From: Leptolyngbya sp. NIES-2104
Lineage (GTDB): Bacteria > Cyanobacteriota > Cyanobacteriia > Leptolyngbyales > Leptolyngbyaceae
DNA: 64,000 nucleotides
Direction of reading: 5' to 3'
NCBI RefSeq assembly: GCF_001485215.1
Contig: NZ_BBWW01000001.1
Span: 4,960,001 to 5,024,000 of the forward strand
This document shows, piece after piece, positions 20,668-29,992 of the stretch (position 1 is its first letter; every line of letters starts with the position of its first letter). The notes beneath the pieces were generated by a model. The model worked only from the letters and a program-made list of their open reading frames with translations. It searched no databases and was not told the origin of the DNA. A program made the position numbers and the translations under genes.

Positions 20668-21510
20668 CTACTCATCCGATTCAAAGTTGGAATCCAAAAA
20701 GTTCAACGCATGATTTCTCAGTTGATAGTACTCAGGAGAATTGCGAATCTTAGCTCGATCGCGGGGATGAGCAAACGGAACCTCCAGAATTTCGCCGATC
20801 GTGGCTTCGGGTCCATTCGTCATCAACACAATGCGATCGCTCATGTAAATCGCTTCATCTACATCATGCGTAATCATCATCACCGCTTGCCGCTGATTCT
20901 CCCAAATTTCCAAGACTTGCCGCTGAAGTTTGCCACGAGTTAACGCATCTAACGCACCAAACGGCTCATCCATTAAAAGCATCTTCGGACGGGTTGCTAA
21001 TGCGCGGGCAATTCCTACCCGTTGCTTCATCCCGCCAGAAATTTCATCAGGATACTTATCAGCAGCAGCCGTGAGGTTGACCATTGCGAGATGTTCACTC
21101 ACGATTTGCTTTTTCTCAACGGGTGAAGCGTCTTTTAGAACTTCGTCGATCGCGAGTCGAATATTTTGGCTTACGGTCAGCCAAGGCAGCAGTGAATATT
21201 GTTGAAACACCATCATTCTTTCGGCTCCAGGCTTGCGAATTTCTCGACCTTCGAGCCGCACTGATCCCGATGTTGCGTTCTCTAATCCCGCTACAATCTT
21301 CAGCAACGTAGACTTACCACAGCCAGAGTGACCAATGATCGAAATAAATTCACGATCGCCGATCGTAAAGTTGATGTCCTTGAGAATCACCGTTTCACGG
21401 TCGCCCGTTTTATAAGCTTTGTGCACATGACTAATTTCCAGAAATGCTGGAGTCGAAACCGCAGGAGAAACGGCTTGAGCGCGATCGTTAACCATGTTGA
21501 ACTGAGACAT
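20668..21510 (-). CDS. ABC transporter ATP-binding protein (NrtD/CmpD/TauB/SsuB family)
   Basis: 280 residues. Walker A GHSGCGKSTLLK, Q-loop in MMVFQQYSLLPW, signature ISGGMKQRVGIARALATRPK, Walker B LLMDEPFGALDA and H-loop MITHDVDEAIY are all intact. It energises the permease encoded upstream. The length matches NrtD-type single ATPases; there is no NrtC-like fused regulatory domain and no second ATPase here. It is the last gene of the three-gene operon; the ribosome binding site lies inside the palindrome GAGGAATTCCTC immediately before the start codon. The substrate is nitrate, bicarbonate or cyanate. Confidence 0.9.
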   Translation of the reverse strand: MSQFNMVNDRAQAVSPAVSTPAFLEISHVHKAYKTGDRETVILKDINFTIGDREFISIIGHSGCGKSTLLKIVAGLENATSGSVRLEGREIRKPGAERMMVFQQYSLLPWLTVSQNIRLAIDEVLKDASPVEKKQIVSEHLAMVNLTAAADKYPDEISGGMKQRVGIARALATRPKMLLMDEPFGALDALTRGKLQRQVLEIWENQRQAVMMITHDVDEAIYMSDRIVLMTNGPEATIGEILEVPFAHPRDRAKIRNSPEYYQLRNHALNFLDSNFESDE

Positions 21511-21532: not shown

Positions 21533-22927
21533 CTAAGAGAGATAAATGTTTGTCGATCGACTCACCCGAATATCGAAGCTGTTGAGGTATCCGACCGGAT
21601 CACTCGGATCAAAAGCTTTCTTATCAATAAATGCTTCAGCAGGTTCGACTTTGTAATCGTCACTCGGACAGGCAATCCCTAATTCGGCAGCAACTTCGCG
21701 ATAAATATCGGTTCGCCAAGCTCGGTTTGCCAGATCCTCGGCATCTTTGGGAATTTCTTTAATTTGTCCCCAGCGGGCAGCTTGCGTCATCAACCAAACA
21801 CTGCGCGATTGCCACATAAACGTGGAATGTTCATTTGCGACTTGTGGAACTTCTTTCGGCAAGTTAAAGAACAATGTCGTCGCATCCGATTTCACGATAC
21901 GATCCTTGCCGTCAAAGCCTCCATAGTTGTACTCACCCACGATCGCAGGTTTTGTAAGTTTCGGTTTTGCTCCGGTGTACGATCGACCAGAAATAATCTT
22001 GGCAACTTCCTCGCGATTTTCATCACAGTAGCGACAGGACTCGATCATCGCTTTGAGCAATGCCCGATAGGTTTTCGGATTCTCATCGATGAATGATTGC
22101 ATTACACCGAGTAAGCGATCGGGATGTCCATTCCAAATCTCTCGACCCTGAGCAAAGGTAAATCCAATTCCTTCATTGCCAGTAATAGCGCGAGTATTCC
22201 AAGGTTCTGCCACCATGTAAGCTTGCATGGCTCCGATTCGCACATTCGTCACCATCTGCGGTGGCGGAATGATGATCACGCGGAACTCTTCTAAAGGATT
22301 AACACCCGCAGCAGCAGCAACATACCGCACAAAGTATTCATAAATCGCAGAACTAAGAACGACTGCCCAAACACGACGTTCTGAAGGTAGCGCCTCAAAG
22401 TAGCGGCGAAAGTCTTGTCCGAATGCTTCTAAGTTACCGTTGTACTCGAACCAGGGACGCAATCCCGCATCCCACATCGATCGATTCATCGTCATCGCAT
22501 TGCCATGATGATGAATCGTCATCCCTGCACACATCGGCGCATGACGCGCTCCTTCCGCCCCGATTCGAGCATTTGTAATCGCACCCGCAACCACAGGCGA
22601 AGCATCTAATCGACCGAATATCAAACCATCGCGAGAAGTTGCCCAGCTTGCTTCACGGCTCAATCGCACATTCAAACCATACTTGCGAAAAAAGCCTTTT
22701 TCCCAAGCGATCGCAAACGGCGCACAGTCATTTACCGGAACATAGCCGATCGTTAAATTCGGCTTCTCTAATTCGCTCGATTTAATTACCGGAGTAATCG
22801 ACATCGCCGCTTCAGACAGTCCTTGAGGTGCACGATTCGCATTAATCGCACACGAAGAAAGTGAAGTCGCGATCGCAGAAGCACCCATGCCCGCAAGAAA
22901 TTCGCGGCGAGTCCATTGATTCGTCAT
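21533..22927 (-). CDS. NrtA/CmpA-family substrate-binding lipoprotein
   Basis: A 464-residue periplasmic binding protein. The N-terminus WTRREFLAGMGASAIAT has a twin-arginine-type RR motif, and LSSCAINA is a lipobox placing the lipid-anchored cysteine near residue 27. The mature part starts LTIGYVPVNDCAPFAIAWEK, as in the nitrate/bicarbonate-binding NrtA/CmpA family, with HHHGNAMTMN and WNTRAITGNEGIGF further on. The ligand (nitrate, nitrite, bicarbonate or cyanate) cannot be fixed without comparing binding-site residues. It sits between the permease (10-bp gap) and the ATPase (22-bp gap) genes. Confidence 0.9.
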   Translation of the reverse strand: MTNQWTRREFLAGMGASAIATSLSSCAINANRAPQGLSEAAMSITPVIKSSELEKPNLTIGYVPVNDCAPFAIAWEKGFFRKYGLNVRLSREASWATSRDGLIFGRLDASPVVAGAITNARIGAEGARHAPMCAGMTIHHHGNAMTMNRSMWDAGLRPWFEYNGNLEAFGQDFRRYFEALPSERRVWAVVLSSAIYEYFVRYVAAAAGVNPLEEFRVIIIPPPQMVTNVRIGAMQAYMVAEPWNTRAITGNEGIGFTFAQGREIWNGHPDRLLGVMQSFIDENPKTYRALLKAMIESCRYCDENREEVAKIISGRSYTGAKPKLTKPAIVGEYNYGGFDGKDRIVKSDATTLFFNLPKEVPQVANEHSTFMWQSRSVWLMTQAARWGQIKEIPKDAEDLANRAWRTDIYREVAAELGIACPSDDYKVEPAEAFIDKKAFDPSDPVGYLNSFDIRVSRSTNIYLS

Positions 22928-22937
22928 CGGTTTACCT

Positions 22938-23786
22938 CTACGATGCGCGACGGCGATGAGTCACCCAGACTTCGATCTGAGCCAGAGCAAAATCAAGTAA
23001 CAATCCGGTTAGTCCGATCACTAACACAGCTAAAAACACCGAACTAAGATTTAATCGGCTCCATTCGTCCCAGACAAAGAAGCCGATTCCCACACCTCCT
23101 GTAAGCATTTCAACAGCAACAATGACAAGCCAAGCCACTCCCAGACTAATTCGCAAGCCTGTGAAGATGTACGGCAAACTAGCAGGGAGAACAATCTTGA
23201 GTATCCGTCTCCAATAAGGCATTTCCAACACTCGCGCCACGTCTAGATAGTCTTTTGGCACACTGGCGACTCCCAGAGCGGTGTTGATGATGGTTGCCCA
23301 TAGAGAAGTAATGAAAATCACGAAAATCGCGGAAGGATCAGCTAAGTTAAAAATCGCTAATGCGATCGGTAGCCAAGCGAGCGGTGAAACGGGTTTGAAA
23401 ATCTGAATCACTGGATTAAGAGTCAGCATCGCCTTTTTAGACATGCCGATCAAAAATCCGATCGGGATCGCTACGATCGCGCCCAATCCAAACCCCAGTA
23501 AGACTCGTCTTAGGCTTGCTAACAACAGCCATCCTAACCCCAAATCACCCGGACCTCGACGGTAAAACGGATTGAGAATATAGTCCAAATTTGCCATCAA
23601 TGCTTCCGGGGGCGTGGGCATCAATTCATGTTTGTTTAGCGCAATGATCCACCAGAGTGCAATCACTCCAGCGAAACCAAGAGCGGGATAGATAAAGCGA
23701 TCGCTTGATACGATCGGTTTTGCCCGGCGCATTGTAGCCTGACCGACAGCAGCAAATACCGCTGCTAAATTGAGTTGCGGGATCAT
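22938..23786 (-). CDS. ABC transporter permease (NrtB/CmpB-like)
   Basis: 282 residues with six hydrophobic segments and the cytoplasmic EAA-type loop (ASVPKDYLDVARVLEMPYWR, then RILKIVLPASLPYIFTG, residues 175-210). It is the membrane channel of the nitrate/bicarbonate/cyanate-type importer and the first gene of the operon. Unlike the classical nrtABCD or cmpABCD order, the permease precedes the binding protein here. No nitrate reductase, cyanase or carbonic anhydrase gene is linked. The leader contains a riboswitch candidate of the ydaO class, so control at the RNA level is likely. Confidence 0.9.
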   Translation of the reverse strand: MIPQLNLAAVFAAVGQATMRRAKPIVSSDRFIYPALGFAGVIALWWIIALNKHELMPTPPEALMANLDYILNPFYRRGPGDLGLGWLLLASLRRVLLGFGLGAIVAIPIGFLIGMSKKAMLTLNPVIQIFKPVSPLAWLPIALAIFNLADPSAIFVIFITSLWATIINTALGVASVPKDYLDVARVLEMPYWRRILKIVLPASLPYIFTGLRISLGVAWLVIVAVEMLTGGVGIGFFVWDEWSRLNLSSVFLAVLVIGLTGLLLDFALAQIEVWVTHRRRAS

Positions 23787-23812: not shown

Positions 23813-23986
23813 CTCAACGTGCCGACGGAGTTAGCTGACGGGCGAGGACTGAGAGATTGTCCCCGGTTGGATTGCTTAGAAGGTGTCTAAGTTCACAACC
23901 GTAAGCCCCGATTAAACTGGTTCCTCCGCTTCAGAAGATTCTGAATTAGGCTGACCGACTCGAATTAGTAGAACTTTAGCATTGAG
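23813..23986 (-). ncRNA. Candidate ydaO/yuaA-type c-di-AMP riboswitch in the leader of the nrt-like operon
   Basis: Read on the minus strand, the leader contains the conserved cores of the ydaO aptamer in order: GCGGAGGAACCAG, then ATCGGGGCTTAC, then CCCGTCAGCTAACTCCGTCG. CTCAATG (23980-23986) and CGTTGAG (23813-23819) can close the structure, and a hairpin TTCAG/CTGAA precedes the GGAGGAACC block. The aptamer ends about 27 bases before the permease start. Two small alternative hairpins, AGAGT-TTG-ACTCT and TCTGG-AGAA-CCAGA, follow; the second covers the GGAG ribosome binding site. This class binds c-di-AMP and usually turns genes off. Exact aptamer borders are approximate. Confidence 0.85.
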
Positions 23987-24060: not shown

Positions 24061-24269
24061 GCGGGTATTTGAAAAGTATGACCAGCCTTTTCGCTTCGTT
24101 GCTCACCCGCCCTGAAATGAATTTCGGGCTAATCGACGAAAGTCTACTGGAGTAGACTGAGAACGGATCTCAAGGTCTTAGTTCATTTTTAATGAACTTG
24201 CACCGATTAGCCCGAAATTCTATTTCAGGGCGGGATGCGGCAATGAACAAAGACACTTCAAGCATTCTC
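24061..24269. mobile_element. MITE-like repeat, type A copy 3 (diverged)
   Basis: A 209-bp copy with decayed ends (GCGGGTATTTGAAAAG left; right end CACTTCAAGCATTCTC) but the same internal arms CGCCCTGAAATGAATTTCGG and AGCCCGAAATTCTATTTCAG. TTA flanks both sides (24058-24060 and 24270-24272). It lies upstream of the riboswitch-controlled operon and upstream of the gene at 24410, so it separates two divergent promoters. The divergence implies an older insertion than copies 1 and 2. Confidence 0.75.
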
Positions 24270-26466: not shown

Positions 26467-27387
26467 CTAAGGAATCGGTTCAGTATCGTGAAAATGCTTG
26501 TAATCAATAATTCGATGACCCTCTGGCGTTCGATGAACGAGATCGATAAAGCGGTAATTCCATAAAATTTCTTGCGGCGCATACACATGTCGATCGTGTA
26601 ACACCTGCGCTACTGTTTCATCGATTCCACTTAGCATCACTTGAATCAGACAATTCGCTTCTACGAGTGATTCTGGAGTCATGCCATAAAGCGGACTATT
26701 TTCATCGATCGAGTGCACCACCAACCAAGTCAAAGCAAATGCCGGACTCTGACTTCGCACGAGTGCTAGATCATGAATCCGACGAATGTAGTGACCTTCT
26801 GAGGTCATCTCGTCACGCAAGAGGTAGACGCGCATTTGAGCTTCTAGAATTTGATTACGACGCTTATTTGCCGCCCGGAAACAAAGAGTCGGGACTCCTT
26901 CATGCGGTGCGATCGTTGCCACTTCGCTAAAGGCAACTCGTGCAGTTGGGCGGGAGAATCGAGCAAACGTAAATCCGGTAAGAATCGCGATCGCTAACAG
27001 CGAAGACACAGCCTCGATCGTCATAATCGACTGAGCATAGTACGTTTTCGGGTACATGGCGCCGTATCCGATCGAGGCAAAGGTTTGAACGCTGAAAAAG
27101 AAGTGATCCCAAAACGATCCCGGTGTCGCATTTGCAATACAATCGCCACCTAAAAGGTACAGAATTGCAAATACAACATTGATTCCTAAATAAGTCGCGA
27201 TGATAATGCCGAAAAATCCCTGCCAAGGAACAGTTAGCACAAGATGATAGGGATCACGCCAGTAGGAGTACCACGCATTCAGTCCAACAATTTGAAAGCG
27301 ACCGTCCTCGACGTGGATTTTAATGCGGCGAGGGCGACGTTTTCTCAATCTTAAAAGTCCAGTCTTAAGGAACGATCGCAGGTTCAT
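26467..27387 (-). CDS. Inward-rectifier potassium channel, KirBac type
   Basis: 306 residues. TM1 is about residues 56-80, the pore helix and selectivity filter read QTFASIGYGAM (residues 100-112, GYG present), and TM2 is about 120-147 (IEAVSSLLAIAILTGF). Residues 150-300 form the cytoplasmic immunoglobulin-like domain with CFRAANKRRNQILEAQMRVY and LTWLVVHSIDENSPLYG, diagnostic of Kir channels. It conducts K+ as a tetramer in the plasma membrane. It is a single gene, convergent with the DUF1350 gene; 198 bp between them hold nothing I can support. Confidence 0.93.
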   Translation of the reverse strand: MNLRSFLKTGLLRLRKRRPRRIKIHVEDGRFQIVGLNAWYSYWRDPYHLVLTVPWQGFFGIIIATYLGINVVFAILYLLGGDCIANATPGSFWDHFFFSVQTFASIGYGAMYPKTYYAQSIMTIEAVSSLLAIAILTGFTFARFSRPTARVAFSEVATIAPHEGVPTLCFRAANKRRNQILEAQMRVYLLRDEMTSEGHYIRRIHDLALVRSQSPAFALTWLVVHSIDENSPLYGMTPESLVEANCLIQVMLSGIDETVAQVLHDRHVYAPQEILWNYRFIDLVHRTPEGHRIIDYKHFHDTEPIP

Positions 27388-29035: not shown

Positions 29036-29992
29036 ATGCCACTCACATTTAAACCAAAAGTTAAACGAAAGCGTTTTCAAGCGACAGTTTTAAGTTTGTC
29101 GATCGTACTCGGTGCGATCGCTGCGGGTGCCTATTGGTATGTTTTCGTGCTCGGTGCTCCTCAACTTGATGCTCCTCCCGTTGAAGAGATTGCTGGACTG
29201 AAGTTTCAAGTCAAAAGCTTTTACAGCGAAGCGATGGGAGAACAACGGCGATACGGCGTAATTTTGCCGCCTGGATATGAAAAACATTCCAATCGTCGCT
29301 ATCCCGTGATCTTTCTGCTTCACGGTGGACATGGAGACGAACGCGATTATTACGAAAAAGCAGCAATTACTAGCACCTTAAAAACGCTGTATAACGAGAA
29401 AAAATTACCCGCTGCACTGATCATCATGCCGGACGGAAACGACGATCGCGGCACGAGTCCATTCTGGGATTCAGATTATTTCGATGGTGAGCATGGCAAA
29501 GTTTCGACTTACATTGGCATGGATCTAGTCAAAGAAATCAGGCAGCAATTTCGCACGATCGAGGATTCACACTATTGGGCGATCGGTGGCTTATCATCTG
29601 GCGGTTGGGGTGCGTTTAACATTGGATTGCGACATGTAGAGCGCTTTACAATTTTCTTCAGTCACACCGGATATTTCATCGATAACAGCGGACCTCAGAA
29701 CAGCCCGCAGATTTTTGTTGAGCAGATTCCACCAAATGAACGCAAACGCATTCGAGCCTACATGGATGCTGGCGAAGCAGATGAAAAATATCTCGATGCC
29801 ACCCGCGATTTTCACAAAGTGTTGACCCAATTAGGAATCTATAACGAATTCTATGTATTTCCCGGTGGGCATGGAATTGTCGGACAAAATGTGGGGTGGA
29901 ATTACTGGAGAACACATCTCGCCGATTCGCTGAGCTTTGTAGGTCGCCAATTCCATCACGTCCAAACTCAGAAAAACCATCGCCACTTTTGA
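29036..29992 (+). CDS. Membrane-anchored esterase (alpha/beta hydrolase, esterase D family)
   Basis: 318 residues beginning MPLTFKPKVKRKRFQATVLS; residues 15-38 are a hydrophobic anchor (LSLSIVLGAIAAGAYWYVFV). The catalytic parts are VIFLLHGGHGDERDYY (oxyanion hole), WAIGGLSSGGWGAFNIGL (nucleophile Ser in GLSSG) and FPGGHGIVGQNVGWNYW (catalytic His). The ATG at 29036 was chosen over a frame start at 28766, which lies inside the divergent gene. The next gene begins five bases after the stop, giving an operon with an MprF-like aminoacyl-lipid synthase; a role in hydrolysing such lipids is inference. Confidence 0.85.
   Translation: MPLTFKPKVKRKRFQATVLSLSIVLGAIAAGAYWYVFVLGAPQLDAPPVEEIAGLKFQVKSFYSEAMGEQRRYGVILPPGYEKHSNRRYPVIFLLHGGHGDERDYYEKAAITSTLKTLYNEKKLPAALIIMPDGNDDRGTSPFWDSDYFDGEHGKVSTYIGMDLVKEIRQQFRTIEDSHYWAIGGLSSGGWGAFNIGLRHVERFTIFFSHTGYFIDNSGPQNSPQIFVEQIPPNERKRIRAYMDAGEADEKYLDATRDFHKVLTQLGIYNEFYVFPGGHGIVGQNVGWNYWRTHLADSLSFVGRQFHHVQTQKNHRHF

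Follow-up and report, generated by a model that had tools for sequence, protein, structure and literature searches.

A c-di-AMP riboswitch in the leader of an NrtA/CmpA-type importer operon of Leptolyngbya sp. NIES-2104

In Leptolyngbya sp. NIES-2104, the gene of an NrtB/CmpB-like permease has a genuine ydaO/yuaA-class c-di-AMP riboswitch as its 5' leader. The switch lies in a stretch of 64,000 nt (contig NZ_BBWW01000001.1, positions 4,960,001 to 5,024,000) that was analysed as a whole and is referred to as the window; positions are those of the window unless another sequence is named. In our judgement, the riboswitch quite probably controls a dedicated importer encoded by three genes in the order B-A-D, which would serve neither nitrate nor bicarbonate, would be switched off at translation and would form one limb of a c-di-AMP regulon for ion and osmotic balance. 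The riboswitch class is already known; what is new is its dedicated importer. The main interest lies in the nearly obligate partnership of the switch with a clade of uncharacterised importers, within a regulon for ion balance. Among the papers covered by full-text searches, no report of this combination of switch and importer was found.

Identity and conservation of the riboswitch

The whole window was scanned with cmscan against 4227 Rfam families. The only match above threshold is RF00379 (ydaO/yuaA, c-di-AMP riboswitch), which is located at 23962-23806 on the minus strand, spans the full model (positions 1-134) and scores 58.2 bits (E-value 6.5e-11) against a gathering score of 38 bits. An initial annotation of this DNA had assigned the leader to the ydaO class and had named the Rfam covariance model as a check, and the scan bears the assignment out. 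The three minus-strand motifs that it had listed, GCGGAGGAACCAG, ATCGGGGCTTAC and CCCGTCAGCTAACTCCGTCG, are all present in that order, and the conserved RF00379 core (GGAACC, GGGG and CCCGUCAGCUAAC) is found in full. The aptamer sits 20 nt ahead of the permease ATG at 23786.

Across the genome (6.39 Mb, 99.96% complete), RF00379 matches at two sites only, in the window and at C1:2631727-2631851, so the window match does not belong to a chance background. The genome contains one diadenylate cyclase gene (PF02457) and, by analogy with the riboswitch class, the leader RNA is expected to bind c-di-AMP. Just upstream of the leader, a palindromic, MITE-like dispersed repeat is found at 24105-24260 (arms 24119-24143 and 24196-24220). 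At least 40 copies of it are present in the genome, most of them 83-90% identical.

RF00379 switches are carried by 93 of 386 cyanobacterial genomes. The permease has exactly one close ortholog in 55 of the 386 genomes, with 70-83% identity apart from the window protein itself, and in 51 of these 55 a switch above the gathering score is located directly upstream. One further ortholog stands at a contig start, with its switch cut by the contig end (35.9 bits), and another is preceded by a weak yet recognisable switch (CGTCAGCTAAC, 29.5 bits); a homologous switch is found in the same place at at least 53 of the 55 loci. The remaining two orthologs belong to one genus (G048 and G064, loci L164 and L165). 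Here the switch has decayed to its 5' half and the permease and binding-protein genes are kept, a natural loss of riboswitch control. At L164:4192-4291, a long AT-rich palindrome gives low-E matches to microRNA-precursor families of Rfam that stay below the gathering scores, i.e. false microRNA matches on a bacterial repeat.

A second set was also inspected, which overlaps the first and comprises 79 loci of named genomes. The CAGCTAA core is found directly upstream in 77 of them, and the other two sites are a one-base variant (CCCGTTAGCTAACTGCG) and an N-masked sequence. The nearest relatives are FACHB-63, LEGE 13415, Phormidium tanganyikae and Leptolyngbya, with binding proteins that are 85-93% identical. 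As judged from these loci, the pairing of switch and importer is old and nearly obligate. Cyanobacteria have few known c-di-AMP effectors (PMC10117731). An importer that is preceded by this switch in at least 53 of the 55 genomes offers a direct and testable c-di-AMP target and raises the question of its cargo.

The importer and its nitrate and bicarbonate relatives

The B-A-D operon behind the switch is encoded on the minus strand with intergenic gaps of 10 and 22 nt. It comprises the permease (22938-23786, 282 aa; TIGR01183, 239 bits, cut-off 209), a Tat/lipoprotein-type solute-binding protein (21533-22927, 464 aa; PF13379, NMT1_2) and an NrtD-like ATPase without a C-terminal regulatory domain (20668-21510, 280 aa; TIGR01184, 365 bits, cut-off 292). 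Permease and ATPase exceed the NCBIfam cut-offs of nitrate transport components. The initial annotation had placed the switch ahead of an Nrt-like operon of this gene order, and this placement is both confirmed by the family models and strongly conserved.

The N terminus of the binding protein contains the twin-arginine motif TRREFLAG and the lipobox LSSC, both read from the sequence, so that export as a lipoprotein is probable. Among solved structures, the CmpC and NrtC regulatory domains match the binding protein best, with that of CmpC being the closest, followed by NrtA and CmpA. In an unrooted tree, the switch-linked binding proteins form their own, third NrtA/CmpA-type clade (100/100 support), apart from NrtA and CmpA, and the NrtC/CmpC regulatory domains fall between the two. 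In this unrooted tree, the distance of the exported switch-linked proteins to the cytosolic NrtC/CmpC regulatory domains is thus smaller than that to NrtA and CmpA, an observation that may be relevant to how these domains arose.

From the description of the importer as "nitrate/bicarbonate-type" in the initial annotation it would follow that c-di-AMP directly governs nitrate or bicarbonate uptake, as an RNA link to carbon/nitrogen balance beside SbtB. We consider this unlikely, although the family models call two of the three proteins nitrate transport components and the binding protein keeps Trp102 and has Arg at the position of Lys269 in NrtA, so that a small oxyanion is possible as a substrate. 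However, the same genome encodes both systems elsewhere. A separate nrt cluster at C1:2108-2116 kb comprises NrtA-, NrtB-, NrtC- and NrtD-like genes, preceded by an open reading frame that is taken, from its sequence, to be nirA, and its NrtA-like protein is the one closest to solved NrtA. A separate CmpABCD-like cluster is located at C1:3154-3161 kb. Neither cluster gives an RF00379 match at E-values up to 0.05. The nrt locus does possess an NrtC with a fused regulatory domain, whereas no gene of the B-A-D operon carries an NrtC/CmpC-type regulatory domain. In NrtABCD, this domain is the site of PII action, and CmpC is an interaction partner of SbtB (PMC13249358).

The binding pocket differs as well. 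The binding protein was aligned with solved NrtA, CmpA and CmpC, taking the chain number plus 29 as NrtA numbering. Gln155, His196 and Lys269 of NrtA are replaced by Asn, Tyr and Arg (N155, Y196 and R269), and these three residues are invariant in all 46 switch-linked orthologs compared. In NrtA, His196 and Lys269 balance the charge of nitrate, and CmpA works with Ca2+ (PMC8786288). At the two charge-balancing positions CmpA has Gln and Glu; the CmpA-type Glu, the acidic residue expected for the Ca2+-dependent mode, is missing from the switch-linked proteins, in which the Arg takes the place of Lys269. Elsewhere in the genome, an orphan CmpA-like binding protein gene (L153, G000:C1:3534626-3535969) does encode Glu at the CmpA-type position and has no permease match nearby.

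In addition, there is no GTA-N8-TAC (NtcA-like) box near the leader, the nearest one within the window being at 29636. Because the pocket differs, a regulatory domain and a nearby GTA-N8-TAC box are missing and the genome has true nrtABCD and cmpABCD operons elsewhere that carry no switch, "nitrate/bicarbonate" is a family label for this importer and not an established substrate. The initial wording thus holds for the family and fails for the nitrate or bicarbonate system itself. The importer belongs to the small-anion importers of the NrtA/CmpA superfamily, yet is distinct from both the nitrate and the bicarbonate system, and a small anion is the probable substrate. This suggests one transporter family with two modes of control, namely PII or SbtB acting on a protein domain in the nitrate and bicarbonate branches versus an RNA switch in the third branch.

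The regulon of cyanobacterial c-di-AMP switches

The first downstream gene was determined for 137 cyanobacterial switches. It is NrtB-like in 47 cases (49 if two misplaced starts are added), a Usp gene in 41, an slr0753-like gene (CitMHS/ArsB) in 30 and a GT4 glycosyltransferase gene in four. A few further switches precede ExoD, P-type ATPase and cation/proton antiporter-like genes, the latter two labels being read from the sequences by eye. The second switch of the window genome (G000; L116:1501-1625) precedes the gene of a Usp-cluster protein. Usp and/or slr0753-like genes are found a few kb or less from the B-A-D cassette at 24 of the 49 surveyed loci and, in the second set, at 57 of 79; a second switch follows in 17 and 29 of these, respectively. 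Upstream of the window switch, at a distance of about 2.5 kb, lies a gene for a Kir-type (inward-rectifier) potassium channel (26467-27387, minus strand, PF17655).

Among known systems, the switch of Synechocystis slr0753 shares the RNA family (RF00379), the core motifs, the phylum and the regulon with the window switch. It differs in that slr0753, described as controlled by a c-di-AMP-dependent riboswitch, encodes a transporter with a putative role in chloride efflux (PMC10117731), whereas the window switch fronts an ABC importer. A Usp domain that binds c-di-AMP is described for the KdpD kinase (PMC8214093), and the riboswitch class has been proposed before to serve ion and osmotic balance in cyanobacteria (PMC5986932).

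Since Usp, slr0753-like, GT4 and cation transporter genes are members, the regulon points to ion and osmotic balance and not mainly to carbon/nitrogen control. The initial annotation had suggested a link to carbon/nitrogen balance. The Nrt-like operon itself supports this in part, as do the known carbon-side targets and the daytime peak of c-di-AMP in cyanobacteria (PMC13249358), but the other regulon members fit ionic or osmotic functions and, like the missing NtcA-like site, weigh against direct control of nitrate or bicarbonate uptake by c-di-AMP. Whether ion balance or carbon/nitrogen balance is the main role of c-di-AMP in cyanobacteria becomes testable with this operon.

The preferred reading, an importer that forms one limb of the c-di-AMP ion and osmotic regulon, would place it beside the Usp protein and the slr0753-like putative chloride exporter, which in other genomes belong to the same regulon and are often encoded in the same cluster. 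A more far-reaching version is tentative, and we give it somewhat less than an even chance. Here, the B-A-D cassette would represent a third NrtA/CmpA-type importer class that carries a substrate of its own, the riboswitch would replace PII/SbtB control via the NrtC/CmpC domain, and importer, Usp protein and slr0753-like exporter would together make up a cyanobacterial anion-balance module governed by c-di-AMP. An slr0753-like gene is not detectable in the window genome, so a partnership in anion exchange cannot be general.

Pseudoknot, expression platform and level of control

At 23813-23860 on the minus strand, the P4 loop (CUCUCA) forms a predicted pseudoknot of six pairs with the 3' tail (UGAGAG), in a register that is shifted by 2 nt in the window. 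The pseudoknot is supported by covariation. Of 122 unique cyanobacterial switches, 104 have all six pairs, two of the paired positions show compensatory C-G/U-A changes, and the mean over the 122 switches is 5.84 of 6 pairs compared to at most 5.57 across 200 partner shuffles. The pseudoknot type differs by downstream gene. CUCUC/GAGAG is found in 45 of the 49 NrtB-linked switches and CUUCC/GGAAG in 37 of the 41 Usp-linked ones, with pairing kept by compensatory changes.

The putative expression platform (CUCUGGAGAACCAGACCCU, 23812-23786, minus strand) includes the Shine-Dalgarno sequence GGAG, runs to the start codon and is common to the four nearest relatives (L172-L175). In the window lineage, which consists of the window and these four, GGAG is located within CUCUGGAG and the distance from aptamer to ATG is about 20 nt, versus 100-140 nt with an extra conserved helix in other lineages. 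The initial annotation had proposed translational control through a small hairpin around the Shine-Dalgarno sequence (TCTGG-AGAA-CCAGA). This hairpin is present in the window, but its 3' side reads CCAAA or GCAAA in the four nearest relatives. Three of them retain just UGG/CCA of the UCUGG/CCAGA stem, and in the fourth the stem is broken. As a conserved control element it was therefore rejected.

Between switch and ATG, no terminator-like site was found in the window leader, and for this reason control at translation is the likeliest mode; the proposed level of control thus stands as likely, on grounds other than the hairpin. Typically, the ydaO class switches import genes off, and this direction is assumed for the window switch. 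At high c-di-AMP, the aptamer and the tail pseudoknot would fold, and the folded switch would turn off translation of the operon. In G033 and G045, the pseudoknot strand GAGGGGAG is itself located at Shine-Dalgarno distance from the ATG, an arrangement that suggests how ligand binding could mask the ribosome site. Folding of the whole window leader was no better than that of shuffled sequences (z -0.83), and no energy argument is used for this reason. Similarly, an alternative ligand-free structure could not be demonstrated for the short expression platform.

That the switch works by transcription termination instead is improbable. In some other lineages, the aptamer is followed by a hairpin and a T run (CCGAGGCTGGTACTGCTCGG-TTTTTTTT in G024, with a near copy in G340), but terminator-like sites occur in only 9 of 47 NrtB-linked leaders compared to 3.6 expected from shuffles, and the 20 nt between aptamer and ATG in the window, where a terminator was looked for and rejected, contain none. 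A ydaO-class variant with a changed ligand is more improbable still and was dismissed. The window does have GGGGCUUAC in place of the Rfam consensus GGGGUGAAU, but GGGGC-N-N-A is common to NrtB-, Usp- and slr0753-linked switches across cyanobacteria, the core shows no group-specific change, and c-di-AMP dependence is described for the slr0753 switch (PMC10117731).

Outside the phylum, the Firmicutes species Bacillus thuringiensis has a switch of the same RNA family ahead of an ion importer operon, kdpFABC (PMC6488665). There, a potassium importer is controlled at transcription, whereas the window switch precedes an NrtA/CmpA-type importer that is probably controlled at translation.
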